A stretch of DNA of 32,642 nucleotides from a virus. A program made the translations under genes and the position numbers. This document shows positions 8,552 to 32,642 of this stretch, in pieces. The notes under the pieces were generated by a model, which was not told the origin of the DNA, did not search any database, and saw only the letters and a list, made by a program, of their open reading frames with translations. Location of the stretch: IMG/VR virus record IMGVR_UViG_3300022208_000279, positions 1 to 32,642 of that record; one strand, 5' to 3'. The first letter of the stretch is position 1, and the number at the start of each line of letters is the position of its first letter.

Positions 8552-9838
8552 ATGAGCAGCAATTTCACAGTACAGATCAAAGACATCACCACCATCAAAC
8601 CCTACGATAACAACCCTCGCATCAATGACGATGCGGTGGATGCGGTAGCGGCCAGCCTGAAAGAGTTTGGATTCCGACAGCCGATTGTGGTCGATGGCGA
8701 CGGGATCATTGTCTGCGGCCACACCCGCTACAAGGCGGCACTGCAGTTGGGACTGACCAAAGTCCCGGTCCATGTGGCGACCGATTTGACTCCCGAACAG
8801 ATCCGGGCGTATCGCATCGCGGATAATAAAACCGCCGACCTGGCCGAGTGGGATTATGACATCCTGCCGATTGAGTTATCAGAACTGGCCGATGCCGGAT
8901 TCGATATGGACCTGCTGGCCTTCGATGAAAAAGAACTGAACAAGCTGCTGGACACCGAGATCCAGCAGGGACTGACCGACCCGGATGATATCCCCGACGT
9001 TCCGGACGAACCGATATCACAATCAGGAGATCTGTGGCTCCTGGGCAGTCACCGTCTGCTGTGCGGGGATTCAACGAACGCGGATGATTTCAAGCGGCTT
9101 ATGGATGGGCACAAGGCGGAGATGGTGTTTTGCGATCCCCCGTACAATGTCAATTATGGAGCAACCATGAAGGACACCCTCCGCGGTAAGGATGGGCACA
9201 AGAACCGGGCCGGCAGCAAACCGGGGCGTAAAATCCTCAACGATAATCTCGGCGACAACTTCGGGGCTTTTCTGAAAGCTGCCTGCCAGCAGATTGTTGA
9301 CCATTGTTCCGGTGCGATCTACATCTGCATGTCCTCCTCGGAACTGGATACTCTGCAGGAGGCGTTCCGTTCGGTCGGTGGCCACTGGTCGACGTTTATC
9401 ATCTGGGCCAAAAACACCTTCACCATGGGCCGGGCGGATTACCAGCGGCAGTATGAACCGATTCTGTACGGCTGGCCCGAAGGTGCCAAACGCTATTGGT
9501 GCGGGGACCGCAACCAGGCGGATGTCTGGGAGGTCAATAAACCCCGCAAGAACGATCTGCATCCGACCATGAAACCGGTCGAGCTGATCCTGCGGGCGGT
9601 GACCAACAGCTCCAAGCAGGGAGCGATTGTCCTGGACCCATTCATGGGCTCCGGTTCCACCCTGATCGCCTGCGAGCAATCCAACCGCACCTGCTATGGC
9701 ATGGAACTGGACCCGGGCTATTGCGATGTGGTGGTCCAGCGTTGGGAAGAGTTTACCGGAAACAAAGCGGAGCGGATCGAAGCGACGAAGAAAACCCCGG
9801 CAGAGGATACCGAGGTTCAAGAAGAGGTGAAGGTCTAA
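8552..9838 (+). CDS. ParB-like nuclease domain fused to DNA methyltransferase (beta class)
   Basis: This 428-residue fusion has a ParB/sulfiredoxin-like N-terminus (about 1-95, NNPRINDDAVDAVAASLKEF and the CGHTRYKAA motif at 55-63). An N6-adenine/N4-cytosine methyltransferase follows, with catalytic DPPYNV (195-200), a central recognition region and the SAM-binding DPFMGSGST (362-370). The order DPPY before FxGxG places it in the beta class. Orphan phage methylases of this kind protect phage DNA against host restriction and may mark replication sites. The SD is GGAG at about 8540. No cognate restriction gene is visible. Its 3' end faces the HARE-HTH gene with an 8-base gap. Confidence 0.85.
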   Translation: MSSNFTVQIKDITTIKPYDNNPRINDDAVDAVAASLKEFGFRQPIVVDGDGIIVCGHTRYKAALQLGLTKVPVHVATDLTPEQIRAYRIADNKTADLAEWDYDILPIELSELADAGFDMDLLAFDEKELNKLLDTEIQQGLTDPDDIPDVPDEPISQSGDLWLLGSHRLLCGDSTNADDFKRLMDGHKAEMVFCDPPYNVNYGATMKDTLRGKDGHKNRAGSKPGRKILNDNLGDNFGAFLKAACQQIVDHCSGAIYICMSSSELDTLQEAFRSVGGHWSTFIIWAKNTFTMGRADYQRQYEPILYGWPEGAKRYWCGDRNQADVWEVNKPRKNDLHPTMKPVELILRAVTNSSKQGAIVLDPFMGSGSTLIACEQSNRTCYGMELDPGYCDVVVQRWEEFTGNKAERIEATKKTPAEDTEVQEEVKV

Positions 9839-9846
9839 TGGTTCAG

Positions 9847-10368
9847 TTAGCCGTTGGCCAGTGCAAACTGCCCGCGTCCGACTTTTTCAAATCGAGAGTC
9901 GGTCCCTTTGACCTTGATCTCCTTGCAAATGGCAGCATGCAATGTGTTCTGCGGCGTCTTGCCGGCCTTCTTCGGTTGCCAGTAATTCTTCTCCGTCATG
10001 GTATCGATCAGCTGCCGGCAGTTCATGGGTTCGCTGGCTTCGGCCAGCACCCGTGCCGCAGCGTCCAGGGCCGAGACCTGTTTGACTCGCAGGGTGTTGG
10101 CCACAGGTGGCGGTGTGTCAGGGATCTTCGGTTTGTCGGGCGATTGGATCGGGGCTGGATCTTCGGTCGCCACAGGCCGCGACGTGACGGCTTGTTTGGC
10201 AAACCCGCGCAAGCCTTGGGCTGATTTAATCCGCACCGTTTTGCCGGTGGCCAGGTTCTTCGCATCCCAGCCGCCGTGAGGGTTTTCGGCAATGATCTCG
10301 ACGACAACCAGCTTGTTGGTCACTTTGGCGGTGTACTGTTTTGAGATGTGTACATCTGATGTTTTCAT
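9847..10368 (-). CDS. HARE-HTH domain protein
   Basis: The minus-strand gene encodes 173 residues. The C-terminal part (about 102-172) matches the HARE-HTH winged-helix pattern: a first helix with SALDAAARVLAEASEPMNC, then RQLIDTMTEKNYW, a variable linker with GKTPQNTLHAAI, and the terminal wing FEKVGRGQFAL. The N-terminal 50 residues include a short beta-rich segment (VVVEIIAENPHGGWDAKNLA), and a proline-rich linker separates the two. HARE-HTH domains are proposed to read DNA modification and occur with DNA-modifying enzymes. The convergent methylase supports that, but only as inference. An AAAGGA SD precedes the ATG. It is the last gene of the minus-strand operon. Confidence 0.7.
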   Translation of the reverse strand: MKTSDVHISKQYTAKVTNKLVVVEIIAENPHGGWDAKNLATGKTVRIKSAQGLRGFAKQAVTSRPVATEDPAPIQSPDKPKIPDTPPPVANTLRVKQVSALDAAARVLAEASEPMNCRQLIDTMTEKNYWQPKKAGKTPQNTLHAAICKEIKVKGTDSRFEKVGRGQFALANG

Positions 10369-10967: not shown

Positions 10968-11222
10968 CTATGCTTGGGTTTCTTTTTTGATTTCCGCGTC
11001 GGCCCAGGCTTCGGCCAGGCCGTCTTTGATCATGTCCTGTTCGATGCCGCTCATAAAGCTCAGGGTCTCAACCAGGTCTGTTCTGATTTTGCTGAGGCTT
11101 CCGACGTGAGCCCAGTTCAGATTCGCGGGCTGTTTATCCAGTTCGCATTCAAACCAGCCCAGCAGGTTGGCGATGTCGGTTTTGACGCTGTCGTAGGCTT
11201 TTGTGAGGTCTGCGTTTGCCAT
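10968..11222 (-). CDS. small helical protein, first gene of the minus-strand operon
   Basis: The 84-residue product starts MANADLTKAYDSVKTDIANL and is almost entirely helical. The ATG has AAAGGAAAAACC upstream. It is the promoter-proximal gene of a four-gene operon running leftwards. The core WFECELDKQ resembles WCEAEMKKQ of the next gene. No enzyme motif or HTH is evident. Possibly a protein-binding accessory factor; function unassigned. Confidence 0.5.
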   Translation of the reverse strand: MANADLTKAYDSVKTDIANLLGWFECELDKQPANLNWAHVGSLSKIRTDLVETLSFMSGIEQDMIKDGLAEAWADAEIKKETQA

Positions 11223-11268
11223 GGTTTTTCCTTTCGTAAGTCGTTGTTAATGTTTGGTTTACATACGC

Positions 11269-11298
11269 CATATATGCTTGTTTTTGAAATCTTATCAA
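11269..11298 (-). promoter_or_regulatory. candidate promoter of the minus-strand operon
   Basis: On the minus strand TTGATA (11293-11298) is followed after 16-18 bases by a CATATATG block (11269-11276) that can serve as a -10 region. Only the -35 is near consensus. AAGTCAT occurs twice with a 9-bp period (11297-11303 and 11306-11312) beside the -35, as an operator might. The AT-rich divergent gap 11223-11366 is otherwise without genes. Confidence 0.35.
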
Positions 11299-11366
11299 GT
11301 CATATAAGTCATTATTATTAAAGAATTTGCATTAATTTTATTAGTTCCGGACAAGGATTCGATACA

Positions 11367-11567
11367 ATGGGTAAATCCCTCAAAATAACCGCTTTAAGCC
11401 CCGAAGAACTGGCCAATGTGCTCTCACAGGCCGGCCGTAAAGCCATCTCGGCCGCTGATGTGCGGATAATTGCCGAAACAGCGGGGATACTTGCCCCGGA
11501 CGAGACCATTAATTTGATTGATTACACCGCATTTTTAGCTCAGGAGGTCGCCGGTGGCGCAGATTAA
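11367..11567 (+). CDS. small protein before TerL, sharing its N-terminal domain
   Basis: The 66-residue protein has an SD AAGGA at 11353-11357. Its core (LSPEELANVLSQAGRKAISA, followed by a helix ending LIDYTAFLAQE) aligns along its length with the first 60 residues of the next protein, TerL (LKPTDLTRLLNSAGFGEVIS, then DLFRYAAWLTH). It is therefore probably the same small helical domain, standing alone. The position just before TerL suggests a small-terminase-like or DNA-recognition role. That is inference, because typical TerS features such as a clear HTH are not obvious. It overlaps the TerL start by 14 bases. Confidence 0.55.
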   Translation: MGKSLKITALSPEELANVLSQAGRKAISAADVRIIAETAGILAPDETINLIDYTAFLAQEVAGGAD

Positions 11568-13815
11568 TCCGACCAAACTCAAACCCACTGACCTGACACG
11601 CCTACTCAATTCGGCTGGATTCGGCGAAGTGATCAGCGAGCATATCCTGCGCCGTCACCGCAATCGTGCCGGTTACACCATCGGTGATGCGAAAACAGTG
11701 GATTTATTTCGGTATGCGGCATGGTTGACACACCAGTATCTGTCGCCACCGAAAGAGGCTCGCGACTATGACCAGATGAAAGAAGCGTCGCGAAAACGAA
11801 TCGCCGACATGGTTCGTGCCGGTCAGGACATTGGTCAGCTCCCAGCTGTTGTAAATCCTGATCGCAAAGCCAAGGCGATGGCCAGCTTTAAGTATTTCTG
11901 CGAGGTATATTTTCCCGATGTGTTTTACCTGCCGTGGTCAGAGGACCATCACAAAGTGATCGCCAAGATCGAGCAGGCGGTTCTTAAAGGCGGGTTGTTT
12001 GCATTGGCCATGCCTCGAGGCAGCGGTAAAACGGTTTTAATGCAGATGGCCTGCCTGTGGTCGGCGCTGATTGGCGCGACGGAGTTTGTGTGTCTGATTG
12101 CTGCCTCCGCTGACCGTGCAAAAAACCTCCTGGAAAATATCAAGGTCTGGCTGGAGACCAATGAGCTGCTGGCAGAGGATTTTCCGGAGGTGACATTCCC
12201 GATCCGGGCGTTAGAGCGGATCACCAATCGACAGAAAGGTCAGCGATACAACGGCATCTCGACCCGCATTGACTGGTCGGCCGATAAGGTTGTGCTGCCG
12301 ACCATCGAGGGTAGCACGGCATCCGGCGTGGTGATCTCCTGTTCGGGCATGCGAGGCTCTGATATCCGCGGCCAAAACCATGCCCGTGCCGATGGCAAGG
12401 TGGTCCGTCCACAACTGGTGATGGTCGATGACCCGCAGACGACCGAATCGGCATGGAGTCCGTCGCAATCCCAGCGTCGCGAGGCGATCTTGGCCGGGGA
12501 TGTCCTGGGTATGGCTGGTCCGGGCAAGAAGATCTCCGGCCTGATGGCCTGTACTGTCATCCGACCCCAAGATATGGCCGACAACATCCTGGACCGGGAA
12601 AAGCACCCCGAATGGCAAGGCGAACGGACCAAAATGGTCTATGTGTTCCCGACCAACGAGAAACTCTGGGCACAGTACGCTGAAATCCGTGCCGATTCCT
12701 TGCGAAACGACGGGGATGGATCTGAGGCAACCGATTTTTACCGTGATAACCGCGAGGCAATGGATGCCGGTTCGGTGATTGCCTGGCCCGAGCGACACAA
12801 TACTGATGAATTATCCGCGATTCAACACGCCATGAATCTCAGGCTTCGGGATGAGGCGGCATTCTTTGCCGAGTACCAGAACGAACCCATCGTCGAGACC
12901 GAGGGCGAGGAAATGCTCGGAGTCGATGAAATCGCTGCCAAACTGAACGGCTACAATCGCAGTATCGTTCCGATTTCCTGTAATCATCTGACGATGTTCA
13001 TCGATGTGCAGCAAAAGGCGCTGTTTTGGATGACATGCGCGTGGGAGACAGATTTTACCGGCTATATTCTCGACTACGGCACCTGGCCGGACCAGAAAAG
13101 AACCTACTTTACCCTGCGGGATGTCCGGCGCACCATTGCCCAGCAAAAACCGGGGGCAGGACTGGAAGGTGCCATTTATCATGCCCTCCAGGAATTAACC
13201 GAAGAGAAGCTATCTCGCTTTTACCACCGGGAGGATGGGCTGGAGGTCAAGATCGACCGCTGTCTGATTGATGCCAATTGGGGCCAGAGCACGGATGTGG
13301 TCTATCAATTCTGCCGGCAGTCACGATACTCCGGTATTGTCGTACCCAGTCATGGTAAATATGTGGGAGCCTCCTCGATTCCGTTTTCCGAATACAAACG
13401 CAAACGCGGGGACCGGGTGGGACTGCACTGGCGGATTCCCAATACGACTGGCAAGCGGGCGGTGCGGCATGTCCTGATTGACACGAACTACTGGAAAACC
13501 TTTGTTCATGCACGTCTGGCGGTGGCGATGGGGGACCCGGGCGCACTATCGCTGTATGGTCGTGATGAAAAGCTGCACCGATTACTGGCAGAGCACCTGA
13601 CGGCCGAATACCGCATCAAGACGATGGCACGGGACCGTACCGTGGATGAATGGAAACTTAAGGCCATCCGGCCGGATAACCATTGGTTTGACTGTTTGGT
13701 CGGATGCGGGGTTGCCGCTTCAATGGAGGGAGCCAAGCTATTTGGAACCGAGTTTAATCCACAGCCTCGGGCCACTCGAATCAAGCTCTCAGAGCTTCAA
13801 AAGAAGCATCGATAA
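11554..13815 (+). CDS. phage terminase large subunit (lambda gpA-like)
   Basis: The 753-residue enzyme starts with GTG at 11554, preceded by AGGAGG. It contains an extra N-terminal helical domain (about 1-62). Next comes the packaging ATPase, with Walker A MPRGSGKT (153-160), Walker B LVMVDD (289-294) and IRPQDMADNILDREKHPEW (about 330-350). A nuclease part begins near residue 475 (TMFIDVQ) and contains CLIDANWG (about 569-576). The organisation and the following lambda-type portal match GpA-like terminases, which cut concatemers and pump DNA into proheads. The N-terminal domain repeats that of the preceding small protein. Confidence 0.85.
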   Translation: MAQINPTKLKPTDLTRLLNSAGFGEVISEHILRRHRNRAGYTIGDAKTVDLFRYAAWLTHQYLSPPKEARDYDQMKEASRKRIADMVRAGQDIGQLPAVVNPDRKAKAMASFKYFCEVYFPDVFYLPWSEDHHKVIAKIEQAVLKGGLFALAMPRGSGKTVLMQMACLWSALIGATEFVCLIAASADRAKNLLENIKVWLETNELLAEDFPEVTFPIRALERITNRQKGQRYNGISTRIDWSADKVVLPTIEGSTASGVVISCSGMRGSDIRGQNHARADGKVVRPQLVMVDDPQTTESAWSPSQSQRREAILAGDVLGMAGPGKKISGLMACTVIRPQDMADNILDREKHPEWQGERTKMVYVFPTNEKLWAQYAEIRADSLRNDGDGSEATDFYRDNREAMDAGSVIAWPERHNTDELSAIQHAMNLRLRDEAAFFAEYQNEPIVETEGEEMLGVDEIAAKLNGYNRSIVPISCNHLTMFIDVQQKALFWMTCAWETDFTGYILDYGTWPDQKRTYFTLRDVRRTIAQQKPGAGLEGAIYHALQELTEEKLSRFYHREDGLEVKIDRCLIDANWGQSTDVVYQFCRQSRYSGIVVPSHGKYVGASSIPFSEYKRKRGDRVGLHWRIPNTTGKRAVRHVLIDTNYWKTFVHARLAVAMGDPGALSLYGRDEKLHRLLAEHLTAEYRIKTMARDRTVDEWKLKAIRPDNHWFDCLVGCGVAASMEGAKLFGTEFNPQPRATRIKLSELQKKHR

Positions 13816-28816: not shown

Positions 28817-29221
28817 ATGGGATGCTGCGGAAAAATATCAAAGGGACTTTCGATTGCCAAGGGCAACCTGGCGGTGGTGCTCGAAAAAATCAACTTGCTG
28901 CCACCCGATCCGTTTATGTATCATTCGGTCCGGCTGCGGGCGTGTCGTTCATGTAAGTATCACACCTATCTGACCGAGAGTGAGTTCCTGGACTGGATTG
29001 ATGAACATGGCGGATTGGTCAAGTTCGTTGCTGAGATTGATATCCTGGACCAGTGGCCGCCACTGCCCATTGAACAGGAAAAGCCCGGAGCGAAATTGTT
29101 CTGCAGTCTGTGTAAATGCTGGCTGCCAGCGAAAGCGTATGTCAAACAAGAAAATTGCCCAATCCAGCATCCGGATTGGCGAAAACCGAAGTGCTTCTTC
29201 AATACAAAGGAAACCTTATAA
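28817..29221 (+). CDS. cysteine-rich protein of the tail-fibre cluster
   Basis: The 134-residue protein begins MGCCGKISKG. It has paired cysteines in RACRSCKYHTYLT (about 42-54) and in FCSLCKCWLPAKAYVKQENC (about 94-113), with a further Cys near its end. The spacing resembles a zinc-binding site or disulfide-stabilised accessory. The start is two bases after the previous stop. It lies between two likely fibre genes and may serve as a fibre-assembly factor. Family unknown. Confidence 0.5.
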   Translation: MGCCGKISKGLSIAKGNLAVVLEKINLLPPDPFMYHSVRLRACRSCKYHTYLTESEFLDWIDEHGGLVKFVAEIDILDQWPPLPIEQEKPGAKLFCSLCKCWLPAKAYVKQENCPIQHPDWRKPKCFFNTKETL

Positions 29222-30924
29222 TGTCTGAAAAATACTGGTATGGCGGCGTGACGAATCACCGAGGCGAATGGGACTGGGAAGGTATCGCCCCCTTTACGAT
29301 TTATGCAGGAAATTTGGTCAACGTCGGTGGACTGTGTGGGATTGGCGCTGTTGGGCATGGTTTAATGCCTGGCGATGAGATCACCATCGCTGGAACATCC
29401 ACGATTGACGGCACATATAATGTCCACACATCAACGACGGCCGATGTTATCGTTATTGATCTGCCCTTTTTCCTGCTGTCTGGCACAAACTCGATTGTTT
29501 CGGGGACTCAGTGGACGGCATCAGGAATCAATCTATACACGTCCGGCGTCCAGGCCGGAATGAGGATCAAGCTCTTCAATGGCGCTACGTTGCTGGGTGC
29601 AAAATACTCCGGCAGCAACGGCATCGTTGCAGGCACGGCGTTCACGGCATCGGGTGTAGACTTCTATGCGATGGGTGTCGAGGTTGGAATGACCGTCAAA
29701 CTGACCAGTGTTGGAAGCGGGTATCTTGGCGAGTTTGCGATTACGAGCATTACGGATGCGACTCACTTGGTGATTGAGGACACCGGCACATCCGAAAGCG
29801 GCCTGACCTGGGAAATCCAGGTGCGTGACGAGGCCACATGGGGCGGCTTTGAAATCATCGCCGTCACGGATGCAACCCATTTGCAGCTTGAATCGACCGG
29901 TCTTTCCCAAAGCGGTGTAACTTATGAAATTAACCGGGGTGAGACCTTTGATGGCACCGAAACCATCACGCCCAACATCGATTCCAACTGGAAACTGGTC
30001 ACTGATGGAAGTAACACTGACAAGCCCACCGATGGAGATGTGGTCCAATTCAATGATCGGGCGTATTACAACAGTACTGCCCAACGATACCAGGACTGCA
30101 CCATCAATGTCGATGCGGCCGGAACGGGAACGCCCAATCTGGGTGGGATGTTTGTTTCGGCTGGATTTAATGGCCATCTTGGTAGTGAGTCGAATCCAGT
30201 GGAGATTAATTGCCAAAACAACGACATTGTTGTGGACGGTGAATGCACAATTTATTTGAAACTATCCGCCGGAGCAGGAGCAGATGCAGGATGCGGGCGG
30301 TTGGTCGTCAATAATGAAAAGGCAAATGTCTATGTCTCCAGCCTGCTTAACGATGTGAGTAATGTGTGCCTGTATGATTTGCTGATCTGCCTGAAGGGGT
30401 ATCTCTGGATTCAGGATAATTGTGCGGTAGGGGAGTTGGTTTCCGCCAACTATAGCTCATTCGTCGATGCAGGCGTCGGGATTGAAAATATCAAGGCAGG
30501 CACACCGTGCAGGATCACGGCCGTCAAGGGCGAGATTGTATGGCGGTCGAAGATTGACCAAGTCAAACTTTTTGATGCGGAGTTTGCCTGGGGGGATGAA
30601 GATATGACCGAGGTGGTCAATTATGCCTGCAATCTTCTGACCATCTACTCCAAGAGCGGTGAGTTCCAGTGGCAGATGGCCGACACCGGCGAATCAGTCA
30701 TCAAGCAGTTTGTGCTGTACGCTGGAAACCTGATCGCCTCCCAGTCGGTCAACAGCGGCTATAAAAAGAAAATCGGCACGGGCACCGAAATCAGCGAATT
30801 GTGGCCGGATGCAACCGCCAACCTAAACAGTTCATCCAACAATGTGTTAATTGCTGCTGGCTCCAAATTGGAATCGCATGGGGGGACATTAATTGCCTCC
30901 AGTGGCTCATTGTTAGGATGGTAA
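29221..30924 (+). CDS. tail fibre-like protein with internal repeats
   Basis: I start it at ATG 29221, preceded by AAAGGAAA (an in-frame earlier TTG at 29116 has no SD). The 567-residue product has two repeat pairs. SIVSGTQWTASGINLYTSGV (about 91-110) matches GIVAGTAFTASGVDFYAMGV (about 135-154). FAITSITDATHLVIEDTGTS (about 172-191) matches FEIIAVTDATHLQLESTGLS (about 210-229). The rest is beta-rich with G/S/T turns, like a fibre or beta-helix. It is the last structural gene of the run and the likely host-range protein. The first residues (MSEKYWYGGV) are aromatic-rich. Confidence 0.55.
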   Translation: MSEKYWYGGVTNHRGEWDWEGIAPFTIYAGNLVNVGGLCGIGAVGHGLMPGDEITIAGTSTIDGTYNVHTSTTADVIVIDLPFFLLSGTNSIVSGTQWTASGINLYTSGVQAGMRIKLFNGATLLGAKYSGSNGIVAGTAFTASGVDFYAMGVEVGMTVKLTSVGSGYLGEFAITSITDATHLVIEDTGTSESGLTWEIQVRDEATWGGFEIIAVTDATHLQLESTGLSQSGVTYEINRGETFDGTETITPNIDSNWKLVTDGSNTDKPTDGDVVQFNDRAYYNSTAQRYQDCTINVDAAGTGTPNLGGMFVSAGFNGHLGSESNPVEINCQNNDIVVDGECTIYLKLSAGAGADAGCGRLVVNNEKANVYVSSLLNDVSNVCLYDLLICLKGYLWIQDNCAVGELVSANYSSFVDAGVGIENIKAGTPCRITAVKGEIVWRSKIDQVKLFDAEFAWGDEDMTEVVNYACNLLTIYSKSGEFQWQMADTGESVIKQFVLYAGNLIASQSVNSGYKKKIGTGTEISELWPDATANLNSSSNNVLIAAGSKLESHGGTLIASSGSLLGW

Positions 30925-30945: not shown

Positions 30946-30975
30946 TTGACAGAAACCGCGTATTGTTTGTATAAT
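30946..30975 (+). promoter_or_regulatory. strong sigma-70-type promoter
   Basis: TTGACA (30946-30951) and TATAAT (30970-30975) are both exact consensus hexamers, separated by 18 bases. Transcription would start near 30982, just before the structured RNA. This is the only fully consensus promoter I noticed in the window. It should be read by the host housekeeping sigma factor, so the RNA is likely made in the prophage state. Confidence 0.75.
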
Positions 30976-30981
30976 GAGGGG

Positions 30982-31068
30982 CAATTAAAAAGCTCCTTCT
31001 GCCGCCTGTGGTGTAGCCCTGGGAAGTTCACTAACTTCCTCCTCCTTCTTGCCACAGGCGGTCTTTTT
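30982..31068 (+). ncRNA. structured regulatory RNA, C4-antisense-RNA-like
   Basis: CCGCCTGTGG (31002-31011) pairs perfectly with CCACAGGCGG (31052-31061). Inside is a second hairpin GGAAGTT-CACT-AACTTCC (31022-31039). CTCCTTCT occurs on both sides (30993-31000 and 31042-31049), each just before GCC. The second copy is part of a CU-rich tract, CCTCCTCCTTCTT, that is complementary to Shine-Dalgarno sequences. A T-run follows the outer stem. The GTGTAGCCC and GTTCACTAACTT segments resemble, from memory, the phage P1/P7 C4 antisense RNA family (Rfam RF01695). C4 blocks antirepressor translation. The family call is unverified, while the fold is directly visible. Confidence 0.6.
31002..31068 (+). 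terminator. intrinsic terminator-like end of the small RNA
   Basis: The 10-bp outer stem (CCGCCTGTGG/CCACAGGCGG) is followed by TCTTTTT (31062-31068). The stem encloses 40 bases, which is longer than most terminators, so termination may be partial and allow read-through to the xis-like and int genes. Confidence 0.55.
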
Positions 31069-31142
31069 CAACAACCATCTTTTGTCTTGTCTGTATTAAT
31101 CAATCATCTTAGCTTTTAACCCCATTTTTGAGAGGAGTGACG

Positions 31143-31352
31143 GTGCAGAATTTTCCTGAATTAATGACTGAGGACGAAGTAATTCAATTCCTACGGATTC
31201 CCGAAATCAGCAAAGCCGCCAACTATCGGCATGTGATTGAAAACCTCAAGCGGATGCATGACCTGCCCTGTATCCATATCTGCCGACAGCCGCTATATCC
31301 CTTGGATTCTGTGCGAAATTGGGTCAAAAATAAGGCATTATTGGAGGAATAG
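31143..31352 (+). CDS. excisionase-like small HTH protein
   Basis: I start it at GTG 31143, five bases after the SD GAGGAG. A TTG at 31128 is in frame but lies before the SD. The 69-residue product begins MQNFPELMTEDEVIQFLRIP. It carries an HTH_17/MerR-like beginning (about 8-30, LMTEDEVIQFLRIPEIS), a central helix (YRHVIENLKRMHD) and a terminal basic strand with PLYPLDSVRNWVKN. Excisionases and AlpA-like regulators have this shape and usually sit beside the integrase. The CU-rich RNA upstream can pair with six bases of its SD. Directionality control is inferred. Confidence 0.6.
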   Translation: MQNFPELMTEDEVIQFLRIPEISKAANYRHVIENLKRMHDLPCIHICRQPLYPLDSVRNWVKNKALLEE

Positions 31353-31353
31353 A

Positions 31354-31443
31354 GTGGATTTATTGGCCCAAATAATTCATAATAAAGACCAGGTTAATCC
31401 AGGTCTAACCGGCGTCATGAGTCAGAAAGGAATGGCTCAATGA
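31354..31443 (+). CDS. 29-codon ORF coupled to the integrase
   Basis: A GTG (31354) with GGAGG at 31342-31346 (spacing 7) opens 29 codons, MDLLAQIIHNKDQVNPGLTG then VMSQKGMAQ. Its TGA (31441-31443) overlaps the integrase ATG (31440). No function is apparent. The tight overlap suggests that its translation delivers ribosomes to the integrase gene, which has only a weak SD (AAAGGAATG) of its own. Confidence 0.4.
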   Translation: MDLLAQIIHNKDQVNPGLTGVMSQKGMAQ

Positions 31444-32642
31444 TGAGACAAAAAAAACTGGTTACACTCTGGGAAAGGCCATCTTCGGATGGCAAAGGTT
31501 TTACCTATTACCTGCTCTTTAACGATGAAAACGGGATTCGACGGCAACGGTCGCTCGGTCACGCCGACAAGCGAAAAGCAGAACGGCAGCGGGACAAGTT
31601 TGAGCGGCAATTGCGGATGGGAATGGTAGAGCCAAGTTCTTTGAAAATTAAAGACTTCGTAAAAGACAGCTTGGCAAGGACGGGCGATCAAATTCGCGAA
31701 AGCACTCGCAATGAGTATGCATCAGGGGTGAAAGATTTTATCAAACGAATCGGCAACCTTGATGTTCGAGATGTGACGCTTACGCATGGAGAAAAATACC
31801 GACAACTCTGTCTGGACGATGGCAATTCGCCTGCGACGGTCACCAAAAAACTCAAGCATTTAAAACGATTGTTTCAGTTGGGAGTCAACAGGCGGCAACT
31901 CGACGAGAATCCTTTTAAGTTTGTGGATACTCCCAAGACCCGCAAAAAGAAGATTCGTATCTACTCGGAAGCAGAATGCCAAAGCATCCTTAAGGTTGCT
32001 CAAGAATATAGTGTAGAATGGGATCTGCAATACCGACCCAAATGGGATTTGCTAATTATTGTGGCGTTGGCAACCGGGATGCGACGTGCCGAACTTCTAA
32101 ATTGCACCTGGAGCGATGTGGATTTTGAACAGCAGGTGATTAACGTCACTCCCAAAGAGGATACGAAAGCAACATGGCGCTGGGATATTAAGGACTCCGA
32201 TGAACGAATGCTGCCGCTGACCAATGAGGTGACGCAACTCCTTGTGGACCATCATGCCAAGCAACCTGAGGGCTATCCTTATGTATTCGTGCCTGTTGGG
32301 CGATATGATGTCATTCAAACGCTCCGAGCCAAAGGGCAGTGGACATACTCGGATTCTCGATTGAAGGTTGTAAATAATTTTACTCCGCAATTCGAGAAAA
32401 TCCTGAAAACGGCCAAGGTCAAAAAAGGGCAGTTTCACGACCTGCGACGTACGGCAATCACAAATTGGTTTGCCAATGGCATGGGGGAGCACGACGTCAT
32501 GGTTCTGGCGGGTCACTCTAATTTTGCGACCACGCATGAATTTTACTTGGCGGTGGCAGATGATTTAGTGGACCGAGCAAGGCGGGCATCCGTGAAAAGT
32601 ATTGATCAAAATCTGTTGCAAATCTGTTGCAGGAGCATATAA
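31440..32642 (+). CDS. int: tyrosine recombinase / phage integrase
   Basis: The 400-residue protein has an N-terminal arm-binding-like domain (about 1-62), a core-binding SAM-like domain (about 68-162) and a C-terminal catalytic domain. The catalytic domain contains R215 (TGMRRAEL), a basic K243 in DTKATWRWDI, H333 and R336 (FHDLRRTAI), H359 (LAGHSN) and nucleophile Y369 (THEFYL). It should integrate and excise the phage at a host att site. The protein ends LLQICCRSI at the last base of the window, so attP and its flank are not visible. A tandem repeat of 11 bp lies in the last 35 bases. Confidence 0.88.
   Translation: MMRQKKLVTLWERPSSDGKGFTYYLLFNDENGIRRQRSLGHADKRKAERQRDKFERQLRMGMVEPSSLKIKDFVKDSLARTGDQIRESTRNEYASGVKDFIKRIGNLDVRDVTLTHGEKYRQLCLDDGNSPATVTKKLKHLKRLFQLGVNRRQLDENPFKFVDTPKTRKKKIRIYSEAECQSILKVAQEYSVEWDLQYRPKWDLLIIVALATGMRRAELLNCTWSDVDFEQQVINVTPKEDTKATWRWDIKDSDERMLPLTNEVTQLLVDHHAKQPEGYPYVFVPVGRYDVIQTLRAKGQWTYSDSRLKVVNNFTPQFEKILKTAKVKKGQFHDLRRTAITNWFANGMGEHDVMVLAGHSNFATTHEFYLAVADDLVDRARRASVKSIDQNLLQICCRSI
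32609..32630 (+). repeat. tandem 11-bp repeat in the integrase 3' end
   Basis: AAATCTGTTGC occurs exactly twice without a gap (32609-32619 and 32620-32630). It lies in codons for Q-N-L-L-Q-I-C-C at the C-terminal end of the integrase. Because it is close to the expected attachment site, it could be an Int or Xis binding site or att core. It may also be only a coding repeat. Confidence 0.55.

Follow-up and report, generated by a model that had tools for sequence, protein, structure and literature searches.

The CcsR or 'cuckoo' RNAs of Alphaproteobacteria are multicopy small RNAs (sRNAs) with CCUCC-type loops that resemble the anti-Shine-Dalgarno (anti-SD) sequence. In Listeria monocytogenes, the sRNAs LhrC1-5 are encoded by several homologous genes per genome, carry repeated unpaired CU-rich tracts and block Shine-Dalgarno (SD) sequences (PMC4132741). 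They possess an intrinsic terminator, and Hfq is dispensable for their control of lapB (PMC4132741). Base-pairing sRNAs are also encoded on prophages, for example DicF (PMC5069750) and the Pas sRNAs, which have spread by repeated phage acquisition (PMC13192938). A full-text literature search revealed no trans-acting anti-SD sRNA described in Planctomycetota.

The locus described here lies in a stretch of 32,642 nt (the window), a prophage of an uncultured Planctomycetota bacterium with genes for terminase, portal, tape measure and integrase. An earlier note on this DNA had proposed a discrete unit of promoter, RNA and terminator that exposes two anti-SD tracts, and this reading of the sequence was upheld. 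Comparison with homologous sequences demonstrates that the predicted unit is genuine: it is a gene for a structured RNA and belongs to a multicopy family.

The promoter-RNA-terminator unit of the prophage

The unit and its neighbours comprise the following features:

29116..30924, + strand: last late (tail-region) gene, its product ending ...GSLLGW before the stop codon; the outermost listed start is given, and an internal ATG may be the true start
30946..30975, + strand: sigma-70-type promoter TTGACA-18-TATAAT, 12/12 consensus match
30982..31068, + strand: small RNA gene of about 80-87 nt, assigned by fold, covariance model and homologues
30992..31001, + strand: 5' single-stranded anti-SD tract GCTCCTTCTG, near-invariant and exposed
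31002..31011, + strand: 5' arm of the closing stem, CCGCCTGTGG, also part of the terminator stem; helix 1 covariation
31014..31020, + strand: conserved unpaired TAGCCCT in an internal loop, from the MAFFT alignment (A6) and the unpaired probability of AGCCCU
31022..31039, + strand: inner 7-bp hairpin with CACT/CACC loop; helix 2 compensatory changes
31040..31049, + strand: second anti-SD tract TCCTCCTTCT in an internal loop, near-invariant and exposed, resembling the host 16S tail CACCTCCTTTCT
31052..31068, + strand: 3' arm of the stem and U-run forming the intrinsic terminator CCACAGGCGGTCTTTTT; covarying stem, then T-run in the copies examined
31143..31352, + strand: small HTH protein downstream of the sRNA, a probable excisionase (PHROG HTH DNA-binding family, E 0.001)
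31440..32642, + strand: tyrosine integrase (Pfam PF00589, E 5e-20)

Reading of the sequence and computational tools agreed on the promoter boxes TTGACA (30946-30951) and TATAAT (30970-30975) with a spacer of 18 nt. The exact promoter claimed in the earlier note is the sole 12/12 match in the scanned region, and transcription is predicted to start at about 30982. An RNA beginning there has a minimum free energy of -32.8 kcal/mol (z -5.96), and none of 200 shuffled sequences was equally stable. Likewise, every element of the fold described before is present in the sequence. A perfect 10-bp stem (CCGCCTGTGG at 31002-31011, CCACAGGCGG at 31052-31061) encloses a 7-bp hairpin (GGAAGTT at 31022-31028, AACTTCC at 31033-31039) whose loop reads CACT in the window copy. 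The 10-bp stem doubles as terminator stem and stands before TCTTTTT, with the T-run at 31064-31068. The motif CTCCTTCT occurs twice, at 30993-31000 and inside TCCTCCTTCT at 31040-31049. The covariance model R1 matched positions 30989-31070 with 101.4 bits, the window copy being among its four training sequences.

The tail-region gene at 29116..30924 had no PHROG match. Its homologue lies directly upstream of the sRNA in two IMG/VR contigs, L144 and L145, with 80% identity in L145. Both contigs have the same order of tail-region homologue, sRNA with its own TTGACA promoter, HTH gene and integrase, and the position of the sRNA before excisionase and integrase is common to these three phages. In a further phage contig, L143, the sRNA has another location: it follows a small gene, a homologue of which also stands before a copy in genome G021. 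Here the RNA occupies 10282-10368, a few hundred bases upstream of a gene at 11001-13697 that looks like a type I restriction-modification gene (HsdM-like). All four phage copies have a predicted promoter and terminator of their own. The INPHARED phage records contained no real DNA match.

A tRNA-Phe gene follows just past the integrase on the host contig (G000 C148:65838-65910), beyond the window end, and is likely the attachment site of the prophage. Because the prophage abuts this tRNA, the sRNA is ruled out as attachment site; the tRNA follows the integrase, while the sRNA precedes the excisionase in three phages. Elsewhere in the prophage, a weak tRNA was found in the early region (1932-1999, + strand; Rfam, 32 bits), and a ParB-like domain is fused to an N6/N4 DNA methylase (8552-9838, + strand; Pfam).

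Distribution and genomic neighbourhood of the RNA family

No family of Rfam 15 reached its gathering score; at the locus and in five homologous loci, only tRNA and sub-threshold chance matches were obtained, relaxed E-values included. BLAST revealed four further copies in the host genome, on C188, C92, C123 and C52, with 80-89% identity; one of them was partial by BLAST and whole by the covariance model, which was trained on four long copies. The host contains five copies in total. With the covariance model, the RNA was detected in all nine genomes of the same genus with 1-14 copies each. Of the 39 genomes in the taxonomic family, 24 have it at E<=1e-4. Among 397 genomes of the class, the model found no copy in any genome outside that taxonomic family. 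A pattern scan of named genomes identified the carriers as Phycisphaerae/Sedimentisphaerales metagenome-assembled genomes (MAGs). Pattern hits beyond Planctomycetota (Hyphomicrobiales, Lachnospiraceae and others) fell below the model threshold or scored about 21-23 bits and were taken as chance, and borderline model hits in G018, G027, G028 and G058 (about 21-22 bits) were excluded from the members. As judged by these searches, the RNA represents an undescribed family, confined to a single taxonomic family of Phycisphaerae and its phages.

A sigma-70-like TTGACA/TATAAT promoter was present at the right distance upstream of 73% of 66 copies, compared with 6.9% of shuffled upstream regions. Together with the stem and the T-run, these promoter statistics characterize the putative sRNA genes as independent transcription units with an intrinsic terminator.

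The core copy, the most conserved one (L004 and 12 homologous loci), is among those that lack a close promoter. It has the gene for RNase HII on one side and, in many genomes, a peptidase-S24/LexA-like gene on the other. The flanks show no conservation; possible promoters were seen by eye some 80-110 nt further upstream, and the core copy may derive from processing of a longer transcript. Short variants lacking a promoter occur directly after stop codons, several of them those of PEP-CTERM genes (L075, L078, L079 and L083; also L081, L084 and L085). Several retain CTCCTT in the loop or the 5' part, and these variants probably serve as terminators. Of 63 copies, 17 have the motif GCGCA within 10 nt of the T-run on its 3' side, where 0.33 would be expected. 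The same motif stands behind at least two further terminators of the host (L167 2102-, 16447+) and may extend the terminator signal. Two MAGs have a tyrosine recombinase-like gene followed after 116-143 nt by a copy of the RNA (L088 1629-1719, L141 2001-2087), and shortly behind that copy comes a second, divergent one.

The window copy shares 87% identity with the chromosomal copies L051 and L052, as opposed to 83% and 75% with the syntenic phage copies. Host and phage copies have probably been exchanged or re-acquired, for which a comparison over about 85 nt offers a weak basis.

Conservation of structure

Covariation was analysed in 59 copies at E<=1e-9 from related genomes and phages, in an alignment fitted to the model. 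Standard pairs occupied 97.3% of the cells, compared with 83.0% in shuffled alignments, and 13 of the 17 pairs had changed on both sides. The number of double-changed cells was 118 versus 21.8 in shuffles, and the covariation score of 0.448 (0.170 in shuffles) was reached by none of 500 shuffles. As a control, sliding the pairs by 1-3 columns cut pairing to 36-48%. Helix 1, the closing stem, was paired in 99.2% of cells, with both-side changes at six of ten pairs, while helix 2, the inner hairpin, was paired in 94.4% with compensatory changes at all seven pairs. The stem covariation named in the earlier note as support for the unit was thus found. A MAFFT alignment built independently of the model agreed: the stems vary, whereas the CU tracts, TAGCCCT and the CACC loop are nearly invariant, the CU tracts being the best-conserved unpaired parts. 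In 40 copies, the mean unpaired probability was 0.97 for the 5' tract, 0.86 for the second tract and 0.73 for AGCCCU.

The strongest evidence against a chance origin of the unit is comparative, namely the four additional copies in the same genome, the set of 59 copies and the strong covariation. Sequence and covariation demonstrate that the sRNA family is real and new, that it is multicopy and lineage-specific, and that a phage carries one of its members.

Anti-SD tracts and candidate targets

The 16S rRNA of the host ends in ...GGATCACCTCCTTTCT with the tail CACCTCCTTTCT; by comparison with this tail, both CU tracts are near-copies of the anti-SD sequence. AAGGAG preceded 12 of 331 host ORFs, which were called mechanically, compared with 4 occurrences at decoy sites. 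As strong SDs are rare in the host, an anti-SD RNA could be selective. Hfq was not detected in a search that detected its positive controls.

The 10-mer complementary to the 5' tract was not enriched in the host genome, where five of its nine sites are the sRNA genes themselves and the control had five. Sites of the type GCAGAAGGAG-N-ATG were no commoner in sRNA-bearing genomes than in related genomes without the sRNA. The best single target candidate is a 13-nt match at the start of a pseudopilin gene (C142:14560); the match was kept in one sister species only (G002), and the other close orthologues read have an ordinary AAAGGAG. Complement, start-site and orthologue comparisons together yielded no conserved or enriched mRNA target, which weakens the case for the mechanism but leaves that for the RNA intact.

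Within the prophage, the earlier note pointed out seven bases, CCUCCUU, that match the SD at 735-745 ahead of the early HTH gene, and this match does exist. Its specificity was not substantiated: the match is a generic one to SD sequences, and this SD pairs more strongly with the host 16S tail than with either tract (about -17.3 kcal/mol versus -12.2 and -10.9 kcal/mol). A specific pairing with the SD at 31132-31137 was not borne out either, as 16S rRNA is again the better partner and L145 has not kept this SD. That the sRNA controls the downstream HTH/excisionase gene is unsupported: the syntenic L144 and L145 both keep the sRNA, but in L145 that gene has no SD.

Function of the RNA

SD pairing in trans is the most economical reading in view of the anti-SD tracts, which are exposed, repeated and conserved, the independence of the units, the large number of copies and the LhrC precedent. 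With moderate confidence we propose that the RNA is a trans-acting, Hfq-independent, SD-sequestering sRNA that would work like LhrC of Listeria, with the phage copy as a moron; sequestration of SD sequences is likely, the pairing step being predicted from the tracts. The near-consensus promoter would cause constitutive synthesis of the RNA, also in the lysogen. Acting in trans and without Hfq, the RNA could pair through its CU tracts with GGAG/AGGAG cores in the SD region. Such pairing would concern a limited number of SD-led mRNAs, prevent binding of the 30S subunit and block the translation of selected messages. A benefit for the phage from carrying the sRNA is plausible: as a moron, its copy might raise the dose of the host regulator, or retune it, to the advantage of the phage. 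The 'new anti-SD sRNA' of the earlier note is accordingly the reading that survives, supported by covariation and by tracts predicted to be exposed.

A protein- or ribosome-directed RNA, in which CU tracts and small hairpin imitate the 16S 3' end and titrate an RNA-binding protein or an initiation component, appears unlikely to us. The tracts indeed copy the anti-SD core, two repeated exposed motifs on a rigid scaffold recall sponges of the CsrB/Rsm type, and no target-site enrichment was found in the host or in sRNA-bearing genomes. Yet the hairpin bears no obvious sequence likeness to helix 45 of the 16S rRNA beyond the CCUCCUU core after the hairpin, no candidate protein was identified, and CU-rich SD-binding sRNAs are already an established kind. 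We likewise give little credence to a mobile or duplicating terminator module that is transcribed incidentally and has no function in trans. Such an element would account for the numerous and dispersed copies and for the promoterless short variants a few bases past stop codons, including those of PEP-CTERM genes. It is at odds with the promoter directly before the RNA in most copies, with a core copy kept at one locus across genera, and with the unpaired CU tracts, which are unneeded for termination but are the best-conserved unpaired parts.

It is quite improbable that the RNA serves control within the phage by setting the translation of the early HTH gene (735-745) or of the excisionase as a lysis-lysogeny switch. 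Such a role would fit the shared position ahead of excisionase and integrase in the three phages and the seven bases that match the strong SD at the early gene. It does not fit the L145 excisionase, which lacks an SD, the different location in L143, or the SD pairings, which are generic and better made by 16S. Moreover, most copies are chromosomal and away from phage genes, which argues against the phage-only lysis-lysogeny switch once suggested for this locus. A C4 antisense RNA (RF01695) controlling an antirepressor, also suggested there, has a similar length, two unpaired pairing tracts and a phage context in its favour, but is extremely improbable, since RF01695 gave no hit at the gathering score, up to E 10 at the locus or up to E 0.5 in five homologous loci, no antirepressor was seen among the window proteins scanned, and the family is mostly chromosomal. 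Nor does the unit resemble a C4 operon leader upstream of an antirepressor gene, having its own promoter and terminator, a tail-region gene upstream and HTH and integrase genes downstream.

SD sequestration in trans, the reading preferred here, has a more far-reaching form that we consider rather doubtful: as imitators of the anti-SD end of 16S rRNA, the family would divide mRNAs into SD-led, repressible messages and SD-less, immune ones, and phages would turn this filter on SD-led genes of the host or of competing phages. If this were true, the rarity of strong SDs in the lineage would make the family a selective translation filter. The findings provide a covariation-supported RNA family in Planctomycetota that is absent from Rfam and comes with a clear pairing hypothesis. 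The system allows a direct test of anti-SD sRNA action in a lineage with few strong SDs and no detectable Hfq, and lets one ask what a phage gains from a copy of a host riboregulator.

Comparison with known systems

The C4 RNA of phages P1/P7 (RF01695) is likewise a short, structured RNA of phage origin in which two tracts for pairing are left single-stranded. The RNA described here differs in matching no C4 model, in having no antirepressor operon in view, in its trans-encoded anti-SD tracts and in belonging to a chromosomal family. DicF and the Pas sRNAs share with it the location of base-pairing sRNA genes on prophages and a variable copy number. The present family differs in being found throughout a lineage and mainly on chromosomes, and its phage copies are related to host copies. 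CcsR, by its generally known motif, is similar in being multicopy and in its CCUCC-type anti-SD loops; it differs by a two-stem architecture, tandem operons and its proteobacterial origin, and the window RNA has no Rfam match.

The closest likeness is to LhrC: multiple homologous genes per genome (5 copies in the host, 1-14 in relatives), CU-rich tracts that are repeated, exposed and conserved, and an intrinsic terminator are found in the present family as well, and SD blocking would be a further common trait. The two belong to different phyla, homology at the level of Rfam is absent, and LhrC has UCCC motifs in place of CUCCUUCU. The planctomycetal RNA has its first tract at the 5' end and its second within an internal loop, and the stem around this loop also serves as terminator. 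Copies of its gene are carried by phages as well.
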